Assembly (NCBI GenBank): GCA_018402015.1
Contig: JAGYJL010000004.1
Span: 1 to 64,000 of the forward strand
Reading direction: 5' to 3'
From: Flavobacteriales bacterium
GTDB taxonomy: Bacteria > Bacteroidota > Bacteroidia > UBA10329
Length of the DNA: 64,000 nucleotides
Shown in pieces: positions 22,616 through 38,286 of this stretch (position 1 is the stretch's first letter; each line of letters opens with the position of its first letter). Made by a program: the position numbers and the translations under genes. The notes under the pieces were generated by a model. The model saw only the letters and a program-made list of their open reading frames with translations, did no database searches and was not told the origin of the DNA.

Positions 22616-24175
22616 GTGATGAAAGACACAGAGATTTATAAGCTGGTTTACGAAATTGTGACCGAAGCCATGATAGTGGTGGATAGAAAGGGAACAATTG
22701 TGGAAGCTAATCCATCAGCGGTAAGAATGTTCAAGTATCCAATGGGACAGTTGGTCGGTATGAATGTGGATGAACTTCTGCCTGATGCTTTGAGGAGGGC
22801 TCATGCATCGCATCGGCACGGATATACCGAAACTCCTCAGAGAAGGACAATGGGAAACAACCTTGACCTCATTGCCCAAGATGCTGAAGGGAATTTCATT
22901 CCGGTTGAGATATCACTGAACCATGCAGAACTGGATGGAGAGCTGCGCGTTGTGGCACTCATAACCGATATTTCTACAAGAAAAGAAGCGGAGCAGAAAA
23001 TCATTCGTATCAATAAAGAGTTGGAAGAAGGCGTTAAGCAACGTACTCAGGAGTTGAATGCTGCAGTAAAAGCACTGGAGGAAAGTCAGCATCTCTACAC
23101 CCTTATTGCTCAGAATTTTCCAGATGGAACCATCAATGTTCTCGATAGAAAGCTCAACTACATTTTTGCGGAGGGAAAAGAGTTTGTAAGAAGCGGAATC
23201 GACCGAAAAAAGGTGATCGGGCTGAATTACATCTCGTTACTTCCCAAAGAATACCAAGAAAAGGTGGAAACCGAGTTGAACCGAGTATTTGAAGGATTGC
23301 CACGCACGTTCGAAATTGTCACACGTGGTAACACTTTCATCATGAGTGCAGTTCCGCTTTACGATGATGAGGTTGGAGTGAACCGAATACTGTTGGTAGA
23401 AAAGAACATTACCGAGCAGAAGCAGGCCGAACAGGATATGGTGGCGGCTCTGAAGAAAGAGCGCGAACTGAACGAGATGAAATCGCGGTTCGTTTCCATG
23501 GCATCGCATGAGTTCCGTACACCGCTGGCCACTGTACTTAGCTCGGTTAATTTGGTCAGTCGCCATGCCGAGAACAACAATCAGGAAGGAATAAATAAAC
23601 ATGTTGGCCGCATAAGGAATTCTGTTCGGAACCTAACATCCATCCTTAACGATTTCCTATCGCTCGAAAAGTTAGAGCAAGGAAAAGTGCAGTTTAAACC
23701 TGAGAATTTTGACATGTGCGAACTCGCAGCCTCGGTTACGGACGAGATCAGCGGCATGACCAAGGAAGGACAGACCATTCGCTTAGACTGTTGTAAGGGA
23801 AATACTTGTTCTGGAAGGATTGTAACCAACCTCGATCCACAATTGATACGTAACGTGCTATTCAATCTGCTCTCGAATGCGATAAAGTATAGCTCGGAGA
23901 ATAAGGAGATCGTCTTTTCGGTAGAAATTGGCGATGAACTTGTTATTCAGGTTCAGGATAAAGGAATGGGCATTCCGGAAGAGGAACAACAGCATCTTTT
24001 CGAGCGGTTCTTCCGCGCAAAAAATGCCACTAATATTCAAGGAACCGGGCTTGGTCTCAACATTGTTCAGAAGCACGTTGACCTGATGGGCGGAATCATC
24101 GATTTTATTAGCAAACTAGACGAAGGAACTACCTTCACCATAACATTACCCACCAACCAAAAATCACCCCTATAA
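22616..24175 (+). CDS. PAS-PAS sensor histidine kinase
   Basis: Two PAS regions; H-box ASHEFRTPLATVLSS; N, G1, G2 boxes (NAIKYSS, DKGMGIPEE, GTGLGLNIV). Confidence 0.9.
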   Translation: MMKDTEIYKLVYEIVTEAMIVVDRKGTIVEANPSAVRMFKYPMGQLVGMNVDELLPDALRRAHASHRHGYTETPQRRTMGNNLDLIAQDAEGNFIPVEISLNHAELDGELRVVALITDISTRKEAEQKIIRINKELEEGVKQRTQELNAAVKALEESQHLYTLIAQNFPDGTINVLDRKLNYIFAEGKEFVRSGIDRKKVIGLNYISLLPKEYQEKVETELNRVFEGLPRTFEIVTRGNTFIMSAVPLYDDEVGVNRILLVEKNITEQKQAEQDMVAALKKERELNEMKSRFVSMASHEFRTPLATVLSSVNLVSRHAENNNQEGINKHVGRIRNSVRNLTSILNDFLSLEKLEQGKVQFKPENFDMCELAASVTDEISGMTKEGQTIRLDCCKGNTCSGRIVTNLDPQLIRNVLFNLLSNAIKYSSENKEIVFSVEIGDELVIQVQDKGMGIPEEEQQHLFERFFRAKNATNIQGTGLGLNIVQKHVDLMGGIIDFISKLDEGTTFTITLPTNQKSPL

Positions 24176-25237
24176 ATGTCTACAAAGAAGATTCTTGTGA
24201 TTGACGATAACTTGGAAATGCGCGAGAACATTGCGGAGATCCTTGAACTTGCTAGCTACGAGACCGTGACTGCCGAAGATGGAAAGAAAGGTGTGGCTGC
24301 TGCAAAATCGGAGAAGCCCGACCTGATCATCTGCGATGTGATGATGCCCGAGTTAGATGGCTACGGAGTGTTGCACATTCTTAACAAAAGCCCCGAAACA
24401 CTGGGTATTCCGTTCATATTCCTTACTGCAAAGTCGGAATCTACGGACATGCGTAAGGGCATGAGTTTGGGAGCAGACGATTACATTACTAAACCATTTG
24501 AAGAAGCCGACCTGCTAGATGCTGTAGAGATGCGCCTCAAGAAAAGTGAGGCGATGAAGTCTGGAGCAAACCGCACCATTCCGGGTGTGCAAGGCTTTAT
24601 GGCCACCGCTACAGGACAAGTGTTTGATCAGGTTACTAAGAATCATCGTACCAAACAGTATTCGCTGAAGGAATATGTTTTCCGCGAAGGCGATTCGCCC
24701 ATTTATCTCTACTTCCTCAGTAAGGGAAAGATCAAGACCTTTAAGATGAATGAAGATGGGAAGGAATACATTACTGGATTGTTCAATTCGGGCGATTTCT
24801 TCGGTTATACCGCGCTGCTAGAGCATTCCAATTACAGCGATTCTGCACAGGTTCTGGACAATGCAGAAGTATTACTGATCCCTAAAGAAGATTTCTATCA
24901 CCTAATGGGTTCAAATACAGAAGTGATAGGAAGTTTTATCAAGCTTTTGGCAGACAACATCCATCAGAAAGAAGAGCAACTGATAGAGTTGGCGTATAGC
25001 TCGGTACGTAAACGAGTGGCCAATGCGCTGGTTCAGGTTTACGAAAAATACAATGCCGAGCACAGAGAAGATTTTACCATTAGCCTTGGGAGAGAAGATC
25101 TGGCAAGTATTGTTGGAACGGCCACAGAAACGGTTATCCGTGCACTTTCTGAGTTCAAGGAAGACGGCTACATCGCTTCCAAAGGGCGTGAAATAAAAGT
25201 ACTGGATATTCAGGCATTGAAGAATTATCGCTTTTAA
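24176..25237 (+). CDS. Response regulator fused to a CRP/FNR-type cyclic-nucleotide-binding domain and HTH
   Basis: REC domain (ILVIDDNLEMRENI, LIICDVMMPELDG, FLTAKSES, KPFEEADLL), CNMP-like domain (KEYVFREGDSPIYLYFLSKGKIKTF), Crp HTH (ISLGREDLASIVGTATETVIRALSEFKEDGYI). Confidence 0.92.
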   Translation: MSTKKILVIDDNLEMRENIAEILELASYETVTAEDGKKGVAAAKSEKPDLIICDVMMPELDGYGVLHILNKSPETLGIPFIFLTAKSESTDMRKGMSLGADDYITKPFEEADLLDAVEMRLKKSEAMKSGANRTIPGVQGFMATATGQVFDQVTKNHRTKQYSLKEYVFREGDSPIYLYFLSKGKIKTFKMNEDGKEYITGLFNSGDFFGYTALLEHSNYSDSAQVLDNAEVLLIPKEDFYHLMGSNTEVIGSFIKLLADNIHQKEEQLIELAYSSVRKRVANALVQVYEKYNAEHREDFTISLGREDLASIVGTATETVIRALSEFKEDGYIASKGREIKVLDIQALKNYRF

Positions 25238-25243
25238 GCGAAT

Positions 25244-25257
25244 CTGACAAATGTCAG
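25244..25257. promoter_or_regulatory. Candidate CRP/FNR-family operator upstream of ccoI
   Basis: CTGAC-AAAT-GTCAG perfect palindrome in the intergenic gap between the REC-CRP gene and ccoI. Confidence 0.5.
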
Positions 25258-25327
25258 TTTTCTGTTTGAGGGCCATCACGCCTTAGGCTTGATTGTGCGC
25301 CCACTTTTGTGGTCGTAATTACCATCC

Positions 25328-27763
25328 ATGTCTTCTGTTACGAAAACCACCACTTGCTATCATTGTAATGATGAGTGCACAGATGAGATCATCGAGCACG
25401 ATGGTCATGATTTCTGTTGTAACGGCTGCAGTACGGTCTATCAGTTGCTGCAAGATGTTGGTTTAGACGAGGCATACGCCAACGGTCCGTTGGGTATTCG
25501 CCCAGAGGAGAGTTCCAATACCGATTTGGCGTATCTCGACAATCCGGAAGTAAAGCAGAACCTTCTTGATTTCTCAGACGGAAAGAAGGCTCGCATCTCT
25601 TTTGAACTGCCGGCCATTCATTGCAGTGCATGTGTGTATTTGCTTGAGCGCTTGGAGCGCTTGAATAAAGGCGTGAAACAATGCGAGGTCAATTTTCCAA
25701 AGAAGCGCGCCAATATTCTTTTCGATGAAACAGAAATCACACTGCGCCAATTGGTGGCGCTGTTGCGTTCCATTGGTTACGCGCCCAATCTGAATTTGCA
25801 GAACACAACCGAGAAAGGCGATAAACCAACAACCGATAAAGCTTTGCTCTATCGGATCGGTGTTGCGGGATTCTGCTTCGGCAACATTATGCTGCTAAGC
25901 TTTCCAGAATATCTCATCGGAGAAAAAGTTTTGGAAGAGAAATGGTCTGAGCTTTTCAATTATCTCAACCTATTGTTGGCACTGCCTGTTGTACTATTTG
26001 CTGGGCGCGATTATCTGGTTTCGGCCTACAAGGGTCTAAAGGTGCGCCACGTGAATATGGATGTGCCTGTTTCCATCGGTATTCTGGCCATATTCGGCCG
26101 TAGCGCGTATGATATTCTTGCAGGAGTTGGCCCTGGGTTCTTAGACTCCTTGGCAGGATTCGTCTTCTTTCTTCTCATCGGAAAATGGTATCAGGCCAAA
26201 ACCTATTCAGGGCTTTCTTTTGAGCGCGACTACAAGTCGTTTTTCCCAATTGCGGTGAATAGAATAGGGGCCGATGGGCAAGTGGATGCTATTATGATCA
26301 AGCACTTGCTTACGGGAGATGAAATTCAGATACATAATGATGAGCTGATTCCTTGCGATTGCGAGTTGCTATCGGAAAAAGCTTCCATCGACTACAGTTT
26401 CGTTACGGGAGAAGCCGAGCCATCTTCAAAAAATGAAGGGAATCGCATTTATGCTGGTGGCAAGAATCGTGGGTCTGTTATACGATTACGTGTGATGAAG
26501 CCTGTTTCGAGCAGTTATCTTACTTCGCTTTGGAACAGTGCCGATACAAGCAAGGATGCAGCGGTTCCTCCATTGCTCAACTTCTCAAACAAGATCGCAT
26601 CTTGGTTCAGTGCAGCGGTTCTTTCCATTGCGGTCATCACGGCTATTTATTGGCTTATTGTAGATCCTACAAACTGGTTGAATACAACAACTGCGGTATT
26701 GATCATTGCGTGTCCATGCGCATTGGCGCTCAGTATTCCATTTACTTACGGTTCAATGCTTCGACATTTTGGTCGTCATGGCTTTTTTGTGCGCTCCGTG
26801 GAAGCAATCGCCAAACTGGGGCAGATCGATAATGTGGTCTTCGATAAGACCGGGACCATTACTATTCGTCTGAAAGGAAGTGTGCTTTTTGGCGGGGCTG
26901 AACTGACCGTTGATCAATTGGAAGCGTTAGTAAATGTGGCGCGGCAGTCGCTTCACCCGCTCAGTAAAACCTTTGCAGCAGCGTTTCCTAAAACACCACA
27001 GGAACAGGTAGTCGGTTTTACAGAGAATGCGGGCGTTGGCATTTACGGTATGGTCAATGGCACATTGGTTGAACTGAAGAATCCGAACAACCTTTCTGAG
27101 CAAGAACGTAAGCAGTTCGATAGTTGGCAGACCGATTTCCACGGTATGGGTAAAACAGCCGTGCTCATTAACGGCCATCTGCATGCGCGGGTAGAGTTCA
27201 CCACCAGTTATCGCGTTGGACTGCACCGAACAATTGAGCAGATGAAGGAAAAGTTAACGGTGTGGTTGCTTTCTGGTGATAACGATACAGAGGCCGCGGC
27301 ACTTTCCAATGATCTTATTGCCGGGTTTGAAAAAGACCACATGTTCTTCAATATGGATCCGCACCAGAAGCGCCAATGGGTTGAGGAGAAGCAATCTGAT
27401 GGAACGGCTAAAGTGCTGATGGTAGGTGATGGACTGAATGACGCTGGTGCATTGCGTGAGGCCCATTTCGGTATTTCCATTGCGGAAGACAACAGTCAGT
27501 TTACACCAGCTTCCGATGGTATTCTCACGGCATCGTCCTTTGAGAAATTACCACAATTGATAGCGCTTGCAAAGCAATCGCGAAGCGTGGTTCTCGGTGC
27601 CTTCGCCTTATCAATGGTCTACAACGTTATCGGTGTTACAGTGGCCGTACAAGGCCTGCTTTCGCCTGTTATGGCTGGCGTACTCATGCCCTTGAGTTCC
27701 GTTTCCATTGTACTGTTCACTACAGTTAGCACCGCCATTTTGGCGAAGAGCAAGCTCCAGTAA
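25328..27763 (+). CDS. ccoI: Heavy-metal (Cu+) translocating P-type ATPase, CcoI/FixI type
   Basis: N-terminal CYHCNDEC...FCCNGCSTVYQLL; HMA (AIHCSACVYLLERL); CPCALALSIP; DKTGTIT; MVGDGLNDAGAL. Confidence 0.93.
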   Translation: MSSVTKTTTCYHCNDECTDEIIEHDGHDFCCNGCSTVYQLLQDVGLDEAYANGPLGIRPEESSNTDLAYLDNPEVKQNLLDFSDGKKARISFELPAIHCSACVYLLERLERLNKGVKQCEVNFPKKRANILFDETEITLRQLVALLRSIGYAPNLNLQNTTEKGDKPTTDKALLYRIGVAGFCFGNIMLLSFPEYLIGEKVLEEKWSELFNYLNLLLALPVVLFAGRDYLVSAYKGLKVRHVNMDVPVSIGILAIFGRSAYDILAGVGPGFLDSLAGFVFFLLIGKWYQAKTYSGLSFERDYKSFFPIAVNRIGADGQVDAIMIKHLLTGDEIQIHNDELIPCDCELLSEKASIDYSFVTGEAEPSSKNEGNRIYAGGKNRGSVIRLRVMKPVSSSYLTSLWNSADTSKDAAVPPLLNFSNKIASWFSAAVLSIAVITAIYWLIVDPTNWLNTTTAVLIIACPCALALSIPFTYGSMLRHFGRHGFFVRSVEAIAKLGQIDNVVFDKTGTITIRLKGSVLFGGAELTVDQLEALVNVARQSLHPLSKTFAAAFPKTPQEQVVGFTENAGVGIYGMVNGTLVELKNPNNLSEQERKQFDSWQTDFHGMGKTAVLINGHLHARVEFTTSYRVGLHRTIEQMKEKLTVWLLSGDNDTEAAALSNDLIAGFEKDHMFFNMDPHQKRQWVEEKQSDGTAKVLMVGDGLNDAGALREAHFGISIAEDNSQFTPASDGILTASSFEKLPQLIALAKQSRSVVLGAFALSMVYNVIGVTVAVQGLLSPVMAGVLMPLSSVSIVLFTTVSTAILAKSKLQ

Positions 27764-27862: not shown

Positions 27863-27876
27863 CTGACAACGATCAG
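27863..27876. promoter_or_regulatory. Candidate CRP/FNR-family operator upstream of ccoS/ccoNO
   Basis: CTGAC-AACG-ATCAG, same geometry as 25244-25257 with one arm mismatch. Confidence 0.4.
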
Positions 27877-27937
27877 TTTTGACTGTGACTGCACTCAGCA
27901 AGTGCCCGATGCACGCTTAATTTCTTTGCTGCCTAAG

Positions 27938-28099
27938 ATGGAAGTGATATTTCTACTCATAGCAATCAGTATCGTAGCGGCAGTCGGATTTCTGGCTGCT
28001 TTTCTATGGGCGGTAAGAAGTGGTCAGTACGATGACGACCAGACACCAGCCATGAGAATCTTATTTGACGAGAAACAATCAACAGAAACCAATAAATAA
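27938..28099 (+). CDS. ccoS: cbb3 oxidase maturation protein CcoS
   Basis: MEVIFLLIAISIVAAVGFLAAFLWAVRSGQYDDDQTPAMRIL; start at 27938 preferred over 27902. Confidence 0.9.
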   Translation: MEVIFLLIAISIVAAVGFLAAFLWAVRSGQYDDDQTPAMRILFDEKQSTETNK

Positions 28100-28103
28100 C
28101 TCA

Positions 28104-30242
28104 ATGGAAAAGGAAACATTCCGTTACGACAACAGCATCGTCCGCAAGTTCGCGTTCGCCACCATGGCGTTCGGTATAATCGGTATGCTAGTAGGATTGA
28201 CCGCTGCCCTGCAGATGGTGGATCCGTGGTTCAACTTTTTAACCCCATATCTGACCTTTGGTAGGATTCGGCCACTGCATACCAATGCGGTGATCTTTGC
28301 CTTTGTGGGGAATGGCATCTTTATGGGTGTTTATTATTCGCTACAGCGTTTGCTGAAAACCAGAATGTGGAGTGATGCACTGAGCAACATCAATTTCTGG
28401 GGTTGGCAGCTCATTATTCTTTCGGCCGTAGTTACGCTTCCATTGGGTATAACAACAGGTAAGGAATATGCCGAGTTGGAATGGTGGATTGATATCTGTA
28501 TCGCTCTTATCTGGGTAGTGTTCGGTTTGAACATGTTCATGACCATACTGAAACGAAGAGAGCGTCACTTGTACGTAGCTATCTGGTTCTATATCGCCAC
28601 CTTCGTTACTGTAGCAATGCTTCACATTGTGAACAGCTTTGAGCTTCCTGTTTCATTCTTCAAGAGTTATAGCTGGTATGCTGGTGTTCAAGATGCATTG
28701 GTGCAATGGTGGTATGGTCATAACGCAGTGGCATTCTTCCTAACCACGCCTTATTTGGGATTGATGTACTACTTCATCCCTAAAGCATCGAACCGACCTG
28801 TTTATTCTTACCGACTTTCAATCGTTCACTTTTGGGCGCTGATCTTCATTTACATCTGGGCGGGACCACACCACTTGTTGTACACTGCTCTTCCAGATTG
28901 GGCTCAGAACCTTGGGGTAGTATTCTCATTCATGCTTATTGCGCCAAGTTGGGGTGGTATGCTCAACGGACTCCTAACCCTTCGTGGAGCTTGGGATAGA
29001 GTTCGCGAAAGCGCTGTACTCAAGTTCATGGTTGTAGCAGTTACTTGCTACGGTATGTCAACTTTCGAAGGGCCAATGATGTCGCTGAAGAACGTGAATG
29101 CCATCAGTCACTTTACTGACTGGACCATTGCCCACGTGCACATCGGTGGTCTGGGTTGGAACGGTTTCATGACTTTCGGTATCCTTTACTACTTGATCCC
29201 AAAACTGTGGAACACTAAAATGTACTCTGATAAGCTTTCTGATTTCCATTTCTGGATCGGAACACTCGGAATCATTCTTTACGCATTGCCAATGTACTGG
29301 GCCGGATTCACACAGAGTTTAATGTGGAAAGAATTCACCGCAGAAGGATTCTTGGCTTACCCTAACTTCTTGGAAACTGTAACCCAGTTAAAGCCGATGT
29401 ACGCTGCAAGAGCATTTGGTGGAGGTATCTACATTATTGGTGTAATAGCAATGCTTTACAACCTGATAATGACCATGAAGCAAGGAACTTTCCAACCAGA
29501 AGAAGAAGCTTCTGCTGCTCCGTTAACAAATGATTACACGGCTCATAAAGGCGAAGGATGGCACAGAGCCATTGAAAGAAGACCGATACAGATGTTGGTT
29601 TTCAGTTTGGTTGCCGTGGCAATTGGTGGCGCGATAGAGATCATTCCTACTATGTTGATCGACAGCAACATTCCTACCATTGCCAGTGTAAAACCATACA
29701 CACCGCTTGAGTTGGAAGGCCGCGACATCTACATCCGTGAGGGTTGCTACAACTGTCACTCTCAGATGATCCGTCCATTCCGATCCGAAACGGAGCGTTA
29801 CGGTGAGTACTCTAAGGCAGGCGAATTTGTGTATGACCACCCATTCCAATGGGGTTCTAAGAGAACTGGTCCAGATCTGCACAGAATTGGAGCCAAGTAT
29901 TCAGATAGCTGGCACTACAACCACATGTGGGATCCTGCAAGTATGTCGCCAGGAACTATTATGCCATCATATCCATGGTTGTTTGACAGTGAACTGAGCA
30001 CAGACCTTACTGCAGGTAAGATCAGAGCAATGCAAACGCTAGGTGTGCCGTACGAAGAAGGTTATGATCAGCTAGCTGTAGAAGACCTTAATGCGCAAGC
30101 ACAGCAGATCGCTGATAACCTGAAAAAGGACGGCATTGAAGTGCTTCCGCAGACAGAGATCGTAGCGCTGATAGCCTACTTGCAACGTCTTGGTACAGAT
30201 ATTAAAGTGAAGGACGCGCAGGCGGCCATGGTAAACCAATAA
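28104..30242 (+). CDS. ccoN: cbb3-type cytochrome c oxidase subunits I and II fused (CcoNO)
   Basis: Heme-copper oxidase subunit I core (YGHNAVAFFLTTPYLGLMYYFIPK, WAGPHHLLYT, HVHIGGLGWNG) followed in one frame by a CcoO region (YIREGCYNCHSQMIRPFRSETERYGEYS); start at 28104. Confidence 0.95.
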   Translation: MEKETFRYDNSIVRKFAFATMAFGIIGMLVGLTAALQMVDPWFNFLTPYLTFGRIRPLHTNAVIFAFVGNGIFMGVYYSLQRLLKTRMWSDALSNINFWGWQLIILSAVVTLPLGITTGKEYAELEWWIDICIALIWVVFGLNMFMTILKRRERHLYVAIWFYIATFVTVAMLHIVNSFELPVSFFKSYSWYAGVQDALVQWWYGHNAVAFFLTTPYLGLMYYFIPKASNRPVYSYRLSIVHFWALIFIYIWAGPHHLLYTALPDWAQNLGVVFSFMLIAPSWGGMLNGLLTLRGAWDRVRESAVLKFMVVAVTCYGMSTFEGPMMSLKNVNAISHFTDWTIAHVHIGGLGWNGFMTFGILYYLIPKLWNTKMYSDKLSDFHFWIGTLGIILYALPMYWAGFTQSLMWKEFTAEGFLAYPNFLETVTQLKPMYAARAFGGGIYIIGVIAMLYNLIMTMKQGTFQPEEEASAAPLTNDYTAHKGEGWHRAIERRPIQMLVFSLVAVAIGGAIEIIPTMLIDSNIPTIASVKPYTPLELEGRDIYIREGCYNCHSQMIRPFRSETERYGEYSKAGEFVYDHPFQWGSKRTGPDLHRIGAKYSDSWHYNHMWDPASMSPGTIMPSYPWLFDSELSTDLTAGKIRAMQTLGVPYEEGYDQLAVEDLNAQAQQIADNLKKDGIEVLPQTEIVALIAYLQRLGTDIKVKDAQAAMVNQ

Positions 30243-30449: not shown

Positions 30450-31640
30450 ATGAAATGGTTTAATAATAGAACAAGACTGTTGAGCGCGGTTGCGCTGAGC
30501 ACGCTTTTGGCCACCAGTGCCAGTGCACAGGAATCAGTAGTTCCGGTTCCGTGGGAGAACATCGTTTCGGCAAATGACACGGCCGTGTTCTGGGTACTTG
30601 CATCATTTGCAGTGCTGTTGCTCATCCTTATATGGGTTGTTGCCGGAGTTACCAAAGGTCTGCTGTCTGATACAGAACTGTGGAAAGGAAAATGGGAGCA
30701 ATCTGCTAAAGCGGTGGCTGTATTCATTGGAACGTCAATGTTGTTGAGTGCTACAGATACGTTGGCACAGACAGAAGTTGCTGCGTCTCCTTTGTTCGAA
30801 ATGTCCGATGGACTTTTCTGGATAATGGTAGTAGTTGATGCTTTCCTGCTCTTCGTATTGCTAGGTATGCTTTACAATCTGAGTAGCCTTATAAAGTCGC
30901 TTAGAACCACAGAAGCCCAGGCAGAAGTTGTTGTAGAGAAATCTATTTGGGAAGGAAGCCTTTCTGCTGCAGTTCCATTGGAGCAGGAAAAAGACATCTT
31001 AATGGACCACGAGTATGATGGTATTATGGAGTTGGACAATAAGCTCCCACCGTGGTGGTTGTACATGTTCTATTTCACCATTGCATTCGGAGTGGTTTAC
31101 ACGATCTACTATGAGTTTTCTGACGGTCCTAGCCAATTGGATGAATACAATACCGAAATGGCAATTGCAGCAGAACAGAAAGCCGCTTTCCTTGCCAATG
31201 CTGCCAATAATGTTGACGAGTCTACAGCAATGCTGTTAACCGATGCGAGTTCTATCTCGAACGGTAAAGCCAAGTTCGAGACGCTTTGTGTAGCATGCCA
31301 TGCCAAATCGGGCGGCTCTACACAGGTGCCAATGGGTGTTGGTCCAAACCTTACAGACGAGTATTGGATTCATGGAGGCGGTATGCAGAACATCTTTAAA
31401 ACCATAAAATATGGTGTGCCAGCAAAGGGTATGATCTCTTGGGAAGCACAATTGACCCCAGTACAGATACAAGAGGTTGCCTCGTATATCATTTCGCTTC
31501 AGGGCACCAATCCTGAAAATGCAAAGGAACCGCAAGGCGATATATGGGTAGAGGATGGTGCTGTTGCACCAGCGGCCCCAACAGATTCTACAGAACAAGC
31601 TCCAGTTGCAGAGGCCGAAACGGCCTCCGCAGCGGAGTAA
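30450..31640 (+). CDS. ccoP: cbb3-type cytochrome c oxidase subunit III (CcoP), one c-type heme motif
   Basis: N-terminal TMs; DGIMELDNKLPPWWLYMFYFTIAFGVVYTIYYE; single CVACH. Confidence 0.92.
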   Translation: MKWFNNRTRLLSAVALSTLLATSASAQESVVPVPWENIVSANDTAVFWVLASFAVLLLILIWVVAGVTKGLLSDTELWKGKWEQSAKAVAVFIGTSMLLSATDTLAQTEVAASPLFEMSDGLFWIMVVVDAFLLFVLLGMLYNLSSLIKSLRTTEAQAEVVVEKSIWEGSLSAAVPLEQEKDILMDHEYDGIMELDNKLPPWWLYMFYFTIAFGVVYTIYYEFSDGPSQLDEYNTEMAIAAEQKAAFLANAANNVDESTAMLLTDASSISNGKAKFETLCVACHAKSGGSTQVPMGVGPNLTDEYWIHGGGMQNIFKTIKYGVPAKGMISWEAQLTPVQIQEVASYIISLQGTNPENAKEPQGDIWVEDGAVAPAAPTDSTEQAPVAEAETASAAE

Positions 31641-31691
31641 GTACTGATAATTAATAAAGGGCAAATTTTTGTCCGACCCAAAGTAAAGGCC

Positions 31692-33107
31692 ATGGAGACG
31701 AAAGATGAAAAAGGGTCATTCAGAGACCACCTGTCAACGCTAGACGATAGCGGAAACAGAAAGTGGATCTATCCAAAAATGCCAATTGGTAAGTACTACA
31801 ATTGGCGTAAGTGGTTGAGCTACGTATTGCTTGCCGTATTGTTTGCGGCTCCGTGGATCAAAATAGGTGGAGAACCGCTGTTGATGATCAACGTGTTGCA
31901 ACGGAAGTTCGTCATCTTCGGGCAGGTTTTCTGGCCACAGGATTTCTACCTGTTCGGTTTGGCAATGATCACGTTCGTGTTGTTCATTGTGCTTTTCACT
32001 GTAGCATTCGGACGTATCTTCTGTGGTTGGTTCTGTCCGCAGACCATCTTCATGGAAATGCTCTTTCGCAGAATCGAGTATTGGATCGAAGGCGATTGGA
32101 AACATCAGCAGCGCTTAGATAAAATGCCTTGGAATGCGGAGAAGATCCGTAAGAAAGGAATCAAGCATTTTCTGTTTCTGATAGTCTCTTTTCTTATTTC
32201 CAACACGTTTCTGGCTTACATTATCGGTAGCGATGAGCTTGTCAACATCATTACCGATTCTCCCTCAGAACACATCGTTGGGTTGGTTGCCATCATCATT
32301 TTCACCTTGGTTTTCTATGGCGTTTTTGCCAGAATGCGAGAGCAGGTTTGCACCAATATCTGTCCGTACGGACGTTTGCAAGGCGTACTTCTCGATCGCA
32401 ATTCCATGATTGTTGCTTACGACCACAAACGTGGCGAAGGAAGAAGTAAATGGCGCAAAGGAGAAGATCGCGCAGCAGAAGGCAAGGGAGATTGTATTGA
32501 TTGCAATGCTTGTGTGGATGTTTGTCCAACAGGAATAGACATTCGTAACGGTACCCAGCTCGAGTGCATCAATTGCACTGCATGTATGGATGCGTGCGAT
32601 AATGTGATGGAGAAGGTTGGATTTGAAAAAGCCCTTGTTGGTTACAAGAGCGAAGAGACCATTTCAACAGGTAAGCCATTTACATACACCGTACGTTTGA
32701 AAGCATACACCGTGGTGTTGAGCATTCTCACCGTTGCCATGTTTGCGCTTATTATCACAAGAGCAGATATTGGAGTAACGGTTCTCCGAACACCAGGAAT
32801 GTTATTTCAGGAAGGCGAGAACAATACAATTACCAACCTGTACAACTATAAGGTGATCAACAAAACGGCCGAGAACATGGTTTTGGATCTTCGCGTGGTT
32901 AAAGGACCAGGCAAGGTGAAAATGGTGGGCGAGATGCTGAAACTGGATGCGCAAGGAACATCGGAAGGTGTGCTTTTTGTGGAGGTTCCGAAAGATGAGC
33001 TGACAGGTAGAAAAACGGATGTAACAGTAGGTATTTACAACGGGGAAAAACTACTGAAGAAGGTGAAGACCAACTTCATTGGCCCAGCACCCGGCTTAAG
33101 CAGATAG
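31692..33107 (+). CDS. ccoG: Cytochrome c oxidase accessory protein CcoG (FixG/RdxA polyferredoxin)
   Basis: GRIFCGWFCPQTIFMEMLFRRIEYWIEGD; CIDCNACVDVCPTGIDIRNGTQLECINCTACMDACD. Confidence 0.95.
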   Translation: METKDEKGSFRDHLSTLDDSGNRKWIYPKMPIGKYYNWRKWLSYVLLAVLFAAPWIKIGGEPLLMINVLQRKFVIFGQVFWPQDFYLFGLAMITFVLFIVLFTVAFGRIFCGWFCPQTIFMEMLFRRIEYWIEGDWKHQQRLDKMPWNAEKIRKKGIKHFLFLIVSFLISNTFLAYIIGSDELVNIITDSPSEHIVGLVAIIIFTLVFYGVFARMREQVCTNICPYGRLQGVLLDRNSMIVAYDHKRGEGRSKWRKGEDRAAEGKGDCIDCNACVDVCPTGIDIRNGTQLECINCTACMDACDNVMEKVGFEKALVGYKSEETISTGKPFTYTVRLKAYTVVLSILTVAMFALIITRADIGVTVLRTPGMLFQEGENNTITNLYNYKVINKTAENMVLDLRVVKGPGKVKMVGEMLKLDAQGTSEGVLFVEVPKDELTGRKTDVTVGIYNGEKLLKKVKTNFIGPAPGLSR

Positions 33108-33110
33108 ACA

Positions 33111-33533
33111 ATGAATTGGGGATGGCGCATAGCAATATTTTATAGCACGTTTGTCGTGTTTATGATCGGAATGGTGGTAATGGCTTTTCGACAGGATTTC
33201 GACCTTGTTTCAGACGACTATTACGAGCAGGAAATTGCCTATCAAGGCCGCATAGACCAGATGACAAACGCATCGGACGATGGCCAGAAAGTCACTGTTT
33301 CCAAATCTGATAACGGGTATGATCTTGCTTTTTCAGAAAAAGCGGAAGAGGTAAAGGTTCACTTTTTTCGCCCTTCAGATGACACCCAGGATTTCAAGCT
33401 GGAAGAGGCTGTAGTCGAATCTATTTTGCCGGTTTCTTCAGAGAAGTTTGCCATGGGCAAATACTTGGTTAAAGTAGAGTGGAAGGCCAATGGTAAAACC
33501 TATTTCCAAGAACAGGATCTTTTTGTAAACTGA
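33111..33533 (+). CDS. ccoH: FixH/CcoH family protein
   Basis: MNWGWRIAIFYSTFVVFMIGMVVMAFRQDFDLVSDDYYEQEIAYQGRID. Confidence 0.9.
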   Translation: MNWGWRIAIFYSTFVVFMIGMVVMAFRQDFDLVSDDYYEQEIAYQGRIDQMTNASDDGQKVTVSKSDNGYDLAFSEKAEEVKVHFFRPSDDTQDFKLEEAVVESILPVSSEKFAMGKYLVKVEWKANGKTYFQEQDLFVN

Positions 33534-34240
33534 TGTTTATAACTGCATTTGCCATAGGGGCTTTGGGAAGTTTCCACTGCATTGGCATGTGTGGTCCAAT
33601 TGCTTTATCTGTTCCAATGGCAGGCAGATCTGGCCTCGCAGGAATCATTAGAGGTTTGGCTTACAATCTGGGTCGGGTTACTACTTATGCTGTTCTCGGC
33701 CTGATCGTAGGATTCGTTGGCAAGCAACTCATGTTCGGCAATTTCCAACAAGGCCTTTCCATTGTCGTAGGAATCCTCATTCTTGGCTTTTTGTTCTTGC
33801 CAAAAGCCATCACCAAAAAACTTGATCCCACTACAAGATTTGCACAGCTGTTTTTAAAGTTGAAGTCAACGTTTCAAGGACTTTTTAAAAGCAGGTCCAT
33901 TTTTGGGCCTCTTTTTCTCGGACTCGTAAACGGGCTCTTACCCTGCGGATTGGTTTACGTTGGATTGGCGGGCGCATTGGCACTTGGAGACCCTTTTTCA
34001 AGCGCTGGTTTCATGGCTGCATTCGGGTTGGGAACAGTGCCGATCATGATAACTGTCATACTTGCGGGTGACCTCATTTCGCTTCAATGGCGCGCAAAAG
34101 TCCGAAAATTGATGCCAGTAATGTTTGCCATCATGGGCGCACTTTTCATACTACGAGGAATGAATTTGGGAATACCTTATGTAAGCCCAAATATGGAAGT
34201 GCCGGAAGTTGGCGGAATTCCACAATGCCACACGCCATGA
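33533..34240 (+). CDS. Sulfite exporter TauE/SafE (UreH-like) family membrane protein of the cco cluster
   Basis: AFAIGALGSFHCIGMCGPIALSVP; GLVNGLLPCGLVYVGLAGAL. Confidence 0.88.
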   Translation: MFITAFAIGALGSFHCIGMCGPIALSVPMAGRSGLAGIIRGLAYNLGRVTTYAVLGLIVGFVGKQLMFGNFQQGLSIVVGILILGFLFLPKAITKKLDPTTRFAQLFLKLKSTFQGLFKSRSIFGPLFLGLVNGLLPCGLVYVGLAGALALGDPFSSAGFMAAFGLGTVPIMITVILAGDLISLQWRAKVRKLMPVMFAIMGALFILRGMNLGIPYVSPNMEVPEVGGIPQCHTP

Positions 34241-35592
34241 ATACCGATTTTATCAAGAAATACAATATCCCAAGTCCCAGGTACACGAGTTATCCTACCG
34301 TGCCGCATTGGAACAATGCCGAGTTTGATAAACATGAACACCTGAACCGTTTGGTTACAAGTTTCAAGAAGGATAAGAAAGAGGGCATTTCACTTTACAT
34401 TCATTTGCCTTACTGCGAGAGTTTGTGCACTTATTGTGGTTGTAACAAACGCATCACAATCAATCATTCGGTAGAAGGACCATACATTGATGCTGTTCTA
34501 AAGGAATGGAGGATGTACTTGGATGTGTTGGGTGAAAAACCCAAGTTGGCCGAACTACACTTGGGTGGAGGAACTCCAACATTCTTCTCGCCAGAAAATC
34601 TCGGCATGTTGATGGATGGTATTTTGGAACACGCCACTACTACCGATAAGTCTGAGTTCAGTTTTGAAGCACATCCGAATAATACCACTATTGATCACTT
34701 GCGCACGCTACGCAAGAAAGGATTTACGCGGATAAGTTTGGGAGTGCAGGATTTTGATACGGTTGTACAGCGTACAATTAATCGCGTGCAAACTTTTGCT
34801 CAGGTTCGGAAAGTAACCCATGACGCTCGCGCACTGGGTTTCAAGTCGGTGAACTTCGACCTGATTTATGGATTGCCGAAGCAAACGATGCAGGGGATGT
34901 TAGACACCTTTGACAAGGTTTCCGTATTGAATCCCGACCGTATTGCGTTTTACAGTTACGCACATGTGCCTTGGAAAAGCCCTTCTCAGCGCGGATATGA
35001 CGATAACGACCTGCCAAATGAGTTAGAAAAGATAGAACTTTACAATGCAGGTCGAGAAAAACTCCTCGCGAACGGTTATGTAGAGATCGGAATGGATCAC
35101 TTTGCAAAACCGGATGATGGCCTTGCTTTAGCCGCTCAGAATGGCACTATCCATCGGAATTTCATGGGGTATACTACCAGCAAGAATGACACGTTGATCG
35201 GGCTAGGTGTGTCATCCATTAGCGATGCGTGGAGTTCGTTGGCTCAGAATCCGATTGTTGTTGAATCGTATTTGGAGAAAATCGAAAAAGGTGAGATTCC
35301 GTTAGTTAAAGGACACCTGCATTCCGATCGTGACATGGCTATTAGAAAGACCATTCTCGACCTGATGTGTACCTTTCATTGTAAGTTGGATTATCTCAAA
35401 AACGAGAAAGAGTTTGAGACCATTGTTCAGCGCCTGTCGGAACATCTTACAGATGATCTTCTCAGTATTGAGGAGCACGGCATACACGTTAAACCGGAAG
35501 GTCGTGCTTTTATTAGAACCATTTGTATGGCCCTTGATGAGTTTGTTTGGAGTAAGGATTCAGGCCAACAGATGTTTTCTAAGAGCGTCTGA
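34237..35592 (+). CDS. hemN: Oxygen-independent coproporphyrinogen III oxidase
   Basis: YNIPSPRYTSYPTVPHW; SLYIHLPYCESLCTYCGCNK; ATGA overlap with the upstream gene, start 34237. Confidence 0.95.
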   Translation: MNTDFIKKYNIPSPRYTSYPTVPHWNNAEFDKHEHLNRLVTSFKKDKKEGISLYIHLPYCESLCTYCGCNKRITINHSVEGPYIDAVLKEWRMYLDVLGEKPKLAELHLGGGTPTFFSPENLGMLMDGILEHATTTDKSEFSFEAHPNNTTIDHLRTLRKKGFTRISLGVQDFDTVVQRTINRVQTFAQVRKVTHDARALGFKSVNFDLIYGLPKQTMQGMLDTFDKVSVLNPDRIAFYSYAHVPWKSPSQRGYDDNDLPNELEKIELYNAGREKLLANGYVEIGMDHFAKPDDGLALAAQNGTIHRNFMGYTTSKNDTLIGLGVSSISDAWSSLAQNPIVVESYLEKIEKGEIPLVKGHLHSDRDMAIRKTILDLMCTFHCKLDYLKNEKEFETIVQRLSEHLTDDLLSIEEHGIHVKPEGRAFIRTICMALDEFVWSKDSGQQMFSKSV

Positions 35593-38286
35593 TCAGGCCA
35601 CCCACTTCTTTATCATCCGCTCTATATCGTTAGAAACAACAGGTTTTAGCAGAAGGTCGTCCATATCGGATTTTAGGTTGCCGTTTTCATCTCTCTGAAG
35701 CACGTTACCGCTAAGCCCGATCACTGGCGGTACGTCTTGGAATCGCTTCTTTATTTCCGATGTTGCTTCCAACCCATCCATTTCGGGCATTTGAATGTCC
35801 ATAAAAACGATGTCATACTTGCTTTTGTCGAAGTTGTCAACAGCCTGTTTTCCGTTAGAAAGAACATCTACCTCGCAACCCATTCTCTGAAGCATGATCT
35901 TAAACGCCTGCTGATTGATGAGATTGTCTTCGACCAAAAGCACTTTAACGCCTTTTACATCTTTTGCGACTGCCTTTTTCGGTTTGGTAAGTAATAGTTT
36001 TTCGGTTTTGGCAATAGTATTACTGAACGGAACAGTAAACCAGAACGTACTGCCTTTGCCGTTTTCGCTTGTAACGCCAATTTCACCACCTAACAGTTCT
36101 ACCAACTTTTTGCAGATGGAAAGCCCAAGTCCGGTTCCTTCTAGATTTTGAGCAACCGTATGCGTTAGTTGAGAAAAGTCTTTGAACAGTTTAGACTGCT
36201 CCTCCTTCGGAATTCCAAGCCCTGTATCGGTTACTTCAAACAGCAATTTGTCGTCATCTTGGTTTACAGAGACGCTTACTTGGCCCGATGGGGTGAATTT
36301 TATCGCGTTCCTAACAAGATTTGATAGAACCTGGGTCAGTCGCCTTCGGTCTGTATCAAGCCTGATTCCTGTAGTAAGTGTTTCAAATACAAGCTCCAGA
36401 TTTTTAGCATTGGCTTCTACTTTGTACCGCTCGGCAATGGTCTGGATCAGGTCGGTCACGTCAAAGTTTTCTTTTTGGATAACCACTTTGCCAGCCTCCA
36501 ACTGCGATAGGTTCAATACATCGTTTACTATGGACCGAAGGTCTTTACTGGCGCCAAGTATATTCTGAATCTTTGAGCGTTGCTCGGAGTTGAGTTCCGT
36601 ATCGAGAAGAATTTCACTCAAACCCATGATCCCATTCAAAGGCGTGCGTATTTCATGGCTCATACTTGCCAAGAAATCTGACCTGAACTTTAGCGAGCGC
36701 TCAGCCAGTTGTTTTTCCTGTTTAAGTTGCTGCGTTTTCCGTTGTTCGGATATATCGATAACGGTACCAACATAACCCCTGTACTCTCCTAGATGATTGA
36801 AAAGTGGCTGAGCCTGTTCAAGAATGTGAACAGTAGCTCCGTCATAACGGGAATAGCGGTATTCCATGGAGAACGACTCCTTACGGTTTTCAACATCTTT
36901 CCAAGTGCTTTTTACTTTCTCAACATCATCTGGGTGTATCTGCTTGGTCCAAGAACCATCCAGTATACTCACCATGTTATTACCAAGAATAAGTTGAAGG
37001 CTCTCGTTGATATAGGTAGAGTTCCCATTAACATCTACTTGATAGATGCCTACAGGCAACAATGAAGCTAATTTTCTGAATTTCGATTCATTCTCCTTCA
37101 GTGCCTTTTCGGCCAACTTCCGCTCTGTAATATCTATAGACCAAACTGTTACTCGGTCAATCTCACCCTTTCCGTTCTTTACAGGGTTAATGTGTCTATC
37201 GAACCAATATTCTTTTCCGTTAAAAGCGAAGTGTTTTTCAACCTGCACTTTTCTTCCAGAGAATGCACGCTCTGTTTCTACTCGGAATTGAACAAGGTTT
37301 TCTTTGGCCGTAATATCCAATACGTTCATTCCCTCTTTCAGCTCAATTCCGAACTGATCCTTTACCATACCGTATGCTGGTTCATTGAAAGCCAGAATAT
37401 TCAACTGCCTGTCGAGCAGATAGAATGTTTGCGAACTGGAATTGAATACTGCTCGCAGGTTATCTTCCGATCGTCTTAGGCTCCGCTCAGCATCAACCTT
37501 ATCGGTTATATCATATGCCCAGATAGATACCATGTTGTGCTTGGCCGATCTGTCTTTGACCGGAGTGAAGCGTATCTCAATAGTACGGTTGTCGGGAGCC
37601 GGCTTGTCAAATTCTACGGAGACCGTTCCGCCCGATCGTGCCACTTTTAGTCCGCCTTCAAACTCATCTTTCCAATAAGGATGGATGCATTCTATTACAT
37701 TCTTTCCGAAAGTATCGTCCGTAGCTTCTTCTGTAGCAAGCAGATTGGGTGCCATCAAATTACAACTGATGATGCGGTCGTCTTCATCGATGAGAATGAA
37801 TCCCTGCGAATCATTATGGTCGATAGCTTGAAGCACATTGGCCTGTTCTTGTGATTGTAGCTCTGCCTTTTTCTTATCGGAAATGTTCTTGTAAGAGTAA
37901 ATTACCCCGTTTATCTCACCGTTTTTTCCGCTTAGTGGACTAAAGCGACCATCGACCCAGAGCTCTCCGCCACTATTCTTTGGATTAGGAATGTGCTGCT
38001 CAACACTAATGGTTCTGCCCTTTAGCGATGACTGGAAGTTTCTGATAAAACGTTTGTTATTGTTCTCATCAACATAATCCCAGTAGGAATTTCCTGTTTT
38101 CAGTTCTTCTTTGAAAAACGAATACATGTCTTTCGAAGCCTTGCTATTGAACCAAAGCAAACGGTATTCCTTGTCGAGGATGATGATACTACGGTCAGAG
38201 TGCTCCAACAGAGATTTCATCTCAGCACTTGGTGCCAAGGATTCGAAGGTTCTATTGTTAGAGTCTTTGTTCATCGTTACCATCAC
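35593..38286 (-). CDS. Multi-PAS hybrid sensor histidine kinase/response regulator
   Basis: Several PAS/PAC repeats; H-box [20 protein letters not shown]; HATPase [23 protein letters not shown]-terminal [19 protein letters not shown]...[17 protein letters not shown]. Confidence 0.93.

Follow-up and report, generated by a model that had tools for sequence, protein, structure and literature searches.

A PAS histidine kinase and a receiver–CRP fusion ahead of a Bacteroidota cbb3 oxidase locus: a probable two-protein counterpart of FixL–FixJ–FixK

The window analysed here is a 64,000-nucleotide stretch of a Flavobacteriales genome (contig JAGYJL010000004.1, positions 1 to 64,000) and, unless stated otherwise, its features lie on the + strand. 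Directly after comM, a gene at 22616..24175 encodes a sensor histidine kinase of PAS-PAS-HisKA-HATPase architecture (ORF and Pfam). The kinase frame counts 519 aa from the GTG at 22616, the ATG at 22619 being the alternative and more likely start. It is followed at 24176..25237 by the gene of a 353-aa regulator in which a receiver (REC) domain, a cNMP-binding fold and a Crp-type helix-turn-helix (HTH) are fused (ORF, Pfam and alignment). An earlier note had described a PAS-PAS kinase running into a REC-CRP/FNR fusion 90 bp before ccoI, and both the ORFs and the Pfam domain search agree.

The genes on the 3′ side of the pair form a standard Bacteroidota cbb3 locus with a fused CcoNO. After the gap of 90 bp that follows the fusion stop, ccoI (25328..27763; ORF and homology) encodes a copper P-type ATPase and is a probable target of the pair. 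Next come a ccoS-like ORF of 53 aa (MEVIF...; 27938..28099) and the fused ccoN-ccoO gene for the cbb3 oxidase subunit (28107..30242; NCBIfam PRK14485, 1287 bits), also a probable target. The rest of the locus, recognised by homology across loci, comprises ccoP, ccoG, ccoH, a SafE-like gene and hemN (30450..35592). At its end, a large hybrid histidine kinase that combines multiple PAS domains with a C-terminal REC lies convergent to hemN (35593-38286, − strand).

In the kinase, Pfam reports PAS (two stretches), HisKA and HATPase_c, all far over cut-off. The N-terminal PAS-A (22643..22987) was compared with PDB sequences, and all 14 matches belong to FixL, DosP or 10jx, a heme PAS. A Foldseek search with its AlphaFold model (pLDDT 83) returned 27 top hits that are all FixL, DosP or 10jx heme PAS, the last being annotated as a heme-binding PAS in the Foldseek results. 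Sequence and predicted fold thus support grouping PAS-A with the FixL and DosP heme PAS domains. In an ungapped alignment, H63 (GTG numbering; codon 22802..22804) falls on the proximal axial histidine of FixL and DosP, at the position of BjFixL H200 and DosP H77, and is therefore a candidate proximal heme ligand. We take FixL H200, which matches the H63 position, to be the proximal ligand; for DosP this role of H77 is documented (PMC4263535). A histidine occupies the position in 38 of 39 aligned kinase rows, that is in all 38 true orthologs, the sole exception (L155_16) being an unrelated ORF that entered the pairing solely through its position. The surrounding positions vary among orthologs while the histidine is essentially invariant.

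The distal side of the putative heme pocket is less uniform. Twenty residues past H63, at the position of the O2-stabilising arginine (FixL R220, DosP R97), the alignment has Arg in 25 of 39 rows and Leu83 (22862..22864) in the window kinase. Mutating R97 of DosP is reported to change O2 binding, and some of the mutants autoxidise much faster (PMC4263535). The ligand or the affinity of the window kinase may therefore differ, since Leu83 replaces the O2-contacting Arg. The HisKA phospho-acceptor H298 (23507..23509; Pfam) is invariant in 39/39 rows. Most orthologous kinases are ~400 aa long with a single PAS that corresponds to PAS-A; PAS-B of the window kinase is a variable extra found only in some kinases.

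The fusion regulator likewise matches its Pfam families far over cut-off: Response_reg at residues 6-118 (9.8e-29), cNMP_binding at 160-246 and HTH_Crp_2 at 279-351. Across 44 fusions, the receiver phospho-acceptor D54 (24335..24337) and K106 are invariant (44/44 each) and T84 is kept in 38/44. Its only cysteine lies within IICDVMMP of the REC domain, so the N-terminal Fe-S cysteine cluster of the FNR type is absent, and the view of the earlier note that an FNR-type 4Fe-4S sensor is unlikely stands. E72 and R82 contact cAMP in E. coli CRP; in the alignment these positions are Tyr and acidic or Ser residues across the fusion family. In CRP/FNR proteins, a Glu and an Arg of the recognition helix contact the TGA core. 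The fusion HTH carries GTATE-x-x-IR, and the residues E318-x-x-I-R322 (25127..25141; alignment) are common to it and to the FNR-type regulators of relatives. An AlphaFold model of the whole fusion has folded domains in an unreliable interdomain arrangement (pTM 0.41).

In a survey of 198 sampled Bacteroidota genomes, with the best 10 candidates scored per genome, full-length fusion homologs were found in 32. All of these belong to the class of the window (32 of the 49 listed same-class genomes), and their identity is 40-56%, the window's own copy excluded. Absence was cross-checked with the CRP part as query: in fusion-lacking genomes the best matches were stand-alone proteins with frames of ~250 aa or less. 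In most of 44 loci the gene before the fusion encodes a relative of the window kinase, and the two genes usually overlap or abut; kinase and fusion are neighbours in nearly all loci. The pair is thus conserved and operonic. REC-CRP fusions outside Bacteroidota were also considered and rejected, the longest non-Bacteroidota matches checked (L018, L019) being REC-only or REC-HATPase proteins. Searches of the open literature, several of them by narrow phrases, turned up no account of a Bacteroidota REC-CRP fusion. The pair recurs across many Bacteroidota and is apparently undescribed so far.

Some loci depart from the usual layout. Two or three fusion copies occur in the genomes G045 (L155), G033 (L156/L162) and G190 (L157/L141/L173), and L155 additionally has a shortened copy of 228 aa that adjoins a further kinase-like ORF. 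At L142 and L168, a protein of ~1080-1090 aa replaces the usual kinase ORF before the fusion; its PAS segment, conserved His included, aligns. At L144, L145 and L148 the pair clusters with Usp, Hsp20, an ATP-cone protein, an MBL-fold protein and a BON-domain protein, a composition recalling a dormancy or hypoxia regulon.

The earlier note had made its reading depend on an association of homologs with terminal oxidase genes in Bacteroidota. Such an association is found: cco genes lie within ~10 kb of the pair in 13 of 44 loci, as compared with a roughly estimated ~1% chance that 20 kb taken at random from a 4-Mb genome would include its single cco cluster. About 70% of the loci are without nearby cco, and when hemN, usp and hsp20 are counted along with cco, 31/44 loci have at least one of them near the pair.

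Two sequences in the cbb3 locus, neither assigned to a strand, are FNR/FixK-type boxes. CTGACAAATGTCAG (25244..25257), a perfect palindrome, lies directly behind the fusion gene and upstream of ccoI, and its near-copy CTGACAACGATCAG (27863..27876) upstream of ccoS-ccoNO. The palindrome was absent from the earlier note, although the interval considered there ends exactly on it (25257). When 143 kb of intergenic DNA from the 44 fusion loci was searched for spaced dyads without supervision, TGAC-N4-GTCA and TGAT-N4-ATCA came out on top; this is the TGAY-N4-RTCA motif seen before ccoI and ccoS-ccoNO in the window. Of 228 box matches in these loci, 165 are intergenic, standing before the kinase gene, usp, ccoN, hsp20, ccoI and hemN. 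All 28 fusion-bearing genomes with a ccoN locus have the box before ccoN (28/28; 35 sites against 0.93 expected by shuffling), while the same test on the control gene comM gave 1/28. The strict form CTGAYN4RTCAG occurs at 10 sites in the window genome against 1 for the reversed pattern; two of the 10 precede ccoI and ccoS, and the genes downstream of other sites include one for PEP carboxykinase and one, next to a usp gene, for a CBS protein (families judged by eye). The degenerate box shows no excess across the window (5 found, 6 expected); the signal lies in placement, not in number. Before the operon of the pair itself, a box is present in 24/43 loci and none is found before the window kinase gene. 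The palindrome at 25244 was also read as a terminator (5-bp stem, 4-nt loop, then TTTT). This was rejected as the sole explanation because the dyad is found again in front of ccoS and, in 28 genomes, in front of ccoN, with the spacings that promoters favour.

These spacings were derived from 196 box-to-gene segments, in which the Bacteroidota −7 element TAnnTTTG was scored with at most one mismatch. Measured from the box centre, it was found 76 times at precisely 29 nt and 29 times at precisely 51 nt, the shuffle maximum at any offset being 11. The two preferred offsets differ by 22 bp, ~two helical turns. Judged from this spacing, and assuming the usual distance from −7 element to start, they would match class II (−41.5) and class I (~−63.5) activator sites; two fixed distances between box and −7 element are an activator geometry. 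The ccoN promoters repeat the 29/51 pattern, though in several of the fusion-only ones both offsets lack an element. In the window, all assignments are tentative: upstream of ccoI, a possible −7 element TAGGCTTG (25284..25291, one mismatch) lies 33 nt from the box centre and an alternative, CACTTTTG (25302-25309), lies 51 nt from it; upstream of ccoS, the possible element TTTCTTTG (27921..27928, one mismatch) is again at 51 nt, only ~10 bp before the ATG. That both window boxes have a one-mismatch candidate at 51 nt is suggestive only as support for activator spacing. Tandem boxes 22-23 bp apart occur at L145 (10507/10529), L154 (3504/3526) and L170 (7738/7761), a spacing that fits the pair of favoured −7 offsets.

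Which protein reads the box is a separate question. In fusion-lacking genomes the box precedes ccoN in 13/16 ccoN loci and is therefore not diagnostic of the fusion; for this reason an assignment from cco promoters alone was rejected. These genomes carry stand-alone CRP/FNR proteins, mostly with an N-terminal CxxC plus additional conserved Cys, and their genes often lie only a few kb away from ccoN. The fusion and the stand-alone FNR-type proteins have the GTATE-x-x-IR helix in common. Sixteen of the 32 fusion-bearing genomes have no CxxC FNR-type protein (judged by reading, with the ambiguous G088 counted as having one), and the 12 of these with ccoN all keep the box (12/12); in genomes with both fusion and FNR, boxes are not assignable to the fusion. 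The search of the window genome found no FNR-type protein, but one could have been missed since the assembly is 83% complete. The two other CRP-like proteins of this genome have a TGTSRQ-type helix that lacks the E and R. The fusion is thus the only CRP-family protein found there with an E-x-x-I-R helix, and the best candidate for reading the box. What supports the putative assignment is the FNR-lacking subset of genomes and the recognition helices, and these only. In one genus, G012 (L188, L190) and G095 (L187, L189) have two ccoN copies, and near cco both the fusion and a CxxC FNR are missing; what adjoins cco there is a CRP-like protein poor in Cys, with a GTATESAIR helix (L224, L227).

Comparison with the FixL-FixJ-FixK cascade of Rhizobiales and Caulobacter reveals the same ingredients in a different arrangement. 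As interpreted here, both have a heme-PAS kinase with an axial His, a HisKA-type phosphorelay, a final CRP/FNR-type output without Fe-S Cys, and TGAY-N4-RTCA-type boxes before cco and hemN (PMC7078487, PMC4999443). In the cascade FixJ directs the synthesis of FixK as a protein of its own, whereas in the window a single polypeptide combines receiver and CRP-type output. Taken singly, the window kinase has the axial His (BjFixL H200 position) and the HisKA/HATPase_c core of FixL, but its PAS is missing the distal Arg (R220). A further mark of FixL is that O2, acting through the heme, inhibits the kinase. The receiver shares the phospho-acceptor Asp with FixJ, which carries a LuxR-type (GerE) HTH in place of cNMP_binding and HTH_Crp_2. 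With FixK, the regulator shares the cNMP-binding fold, the Crp HTH without Fe-S Cys ligands and the TGAY-N4-RTCA-type boxes before cco; FixK, however, stands alone and its gene is induced by FixLJ, while the window regulator is fused to its own receiver. The window regulator is therefore not FixJ (HTH), not FNR (Cys) and not strictly FixK (fused), and the circuit resembles FixL-J-K while lying outside those families as defined.

Other systems share parts of this design. The FixK of Alphaproteobacteria has no Fe-S Cys and relies on FixLJ, while FnrN senses O2 itself (PMC4999443). FNR, FnrN and FnrL have the box core and much of the core FNR regulon (cco, ccoI, ccoG, hemN, uspA; PMC2908626) in common with the fusion, but they sense O2 with their own Fe-S cluster, whereas the fusion has its single REC Cys and would be controlled by phosphorylation. 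The stand-alone CxxC FNR-type regulators of Bacteroidota (L219, L225 and others) are alike in the E-x-x-I-R helix, the box before ccoN and equal spacing, and unlike in having no receiver domain and a conserved N-terminal CxxC with additional Cys. E. coli DosP and FG214 (PDB 10jx) resemble PAS-A in sequence, fold and axial His; unlike the window kinase, DosP is a phosphodiesterase and 10jx comes from a one-component transcription factor. In Myxococcus xanthus NmpRSTU, a heme-dependent kinase also controls cbb3, hemN and other oxygen-utilisation genes, but with a protoglobin sensor, an NtrC-like regulator, a multi-step relay and an unrelated output domain, which shows that other lineages met the same task with unrelated parts (PMC11841059).

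We consider it probable that the pair is a low-oxygen two-component system in which two proteins do the job of the three rhizobial proteins, the fusion activating the cco genes. In this mechanism a soluble kinase with a heme PAS of the FixL/DosP kind would detect a fall in oxygen and autophosphorylate on H298, and the phosphate would pass to D54 of the fusion. The phosphorylated fusion would then dimerise or reorient its HTH, bind TGAY-N4-RTCA boxes at class II (~−41.5) or class I (~−63.5) positions and activate −7 (TAnnTTTG) promoters of ccoI, ccoS-ccoNO-P, usp, hsp20, hemN and often its own operon. What the analysis shows directly is the domain architecture, its conservation, the position of the axial His, and the box with its statistical placement and its presence before ccoN; heme and O2 binding, phosphotransfer, DNA binding and the direction of the response are what we infer. 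The compressed FixL-FixJ-FixK-like circuit proposed in the earlier note gains computational support from the conserved adjacent pair, the heme-PAS matches of PAS-A with their axial His, the intact phospho-acceptors, the missing Fe-S Cys, the recognition helix, and the statistics and activator spacing of the box. Against it speak Leu83, the box in fusion-lacking genomes, the ~70% of loci without nearby cco, the missing box before the window kinase, the one-mismatch −7 elements and the 83% completeness. The suggestion of the earlier note that the pair controls cco is supported, boxes preceding the window cco genes and ccoN in 28/28 genomes, with the correction that cco would be one target among several (usp, hsp20, hemN, own operon) and that related species would use a stand-alone FNR-type protein on this box. 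On the best reading, the circuit belongs to a wider Bacteroidota regulon.

Three rival explanations deserve weighing. It is rather unlikely that the pair is real and the fusion reads TGAY-N4-RTCA while the signal is another ligand or redox state in place of O2 on heme, or that the second PAS dominates. PAS folds bind many ligands, PAS-B is present in only some kinases, and the distal Arg is Leu in the window kinase and missing in about a third of orthologs; yet heme PAS domains account for every sequence match and for the 27 best structural hits, the axial His hardly ever changes although its neighbours do, and the target genes are classic low-oxygen genes. That a different CRP/FNR protein reads the cco boxes, the pair being linked to cco by position only, seems distinctly unlikely. 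The genomes that keep the box without the fusion, with a stand-alone FNR-type protein near cco, would fit it, as would the 83% completeness of the window genome. Against this reading, no FNR-type protein was found in that genome and its two other CRP-like proteins differ in the helix, all 12 FNR-lacking fusion genomes with ccoN keep the box, and the fusion has the GTATE-x-x-IR helix in common with the stand-alone proteins. Finally, the cNMP-like domain matched Pfam cNMP_binding and might still take cAMP or another small ligand, with REC only modulating a CRP-type, not FixK-like, regulator. This is highly improbable, as the residues at the E72/R82 positions are not kept in the family and the REC phospho-site is invariant.

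Returning to the low-oxygen two-component system, we lean towards a broader proposal: Bacteroidota would have two interchangeable readers of the same low-oxygen promoter box. One would be an FNR-type protein with an Fe-S cluster, the other a heme-PAS kinase with its REC-CRP fusion, an independent condensation of FixL-FixJ-FixK. The sensors would be swapped or combined by lineage while box, class I/II spacing and regulon are kept. Bacteroidota outside the gut are among the commonest aerobic and microaerobic bacteria, and to our knowledge how they sense a fall in oxygen is poorly described. A widely conserved candidate sensor-regulator pair now comes with a DNA box, a promoter spacing and a predicted regulon. 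The three-tier rhizobial cascade appears here as two tiers, and a phosphorylation-driven regulator appears to replace Fe-S FNR on the same promoters.
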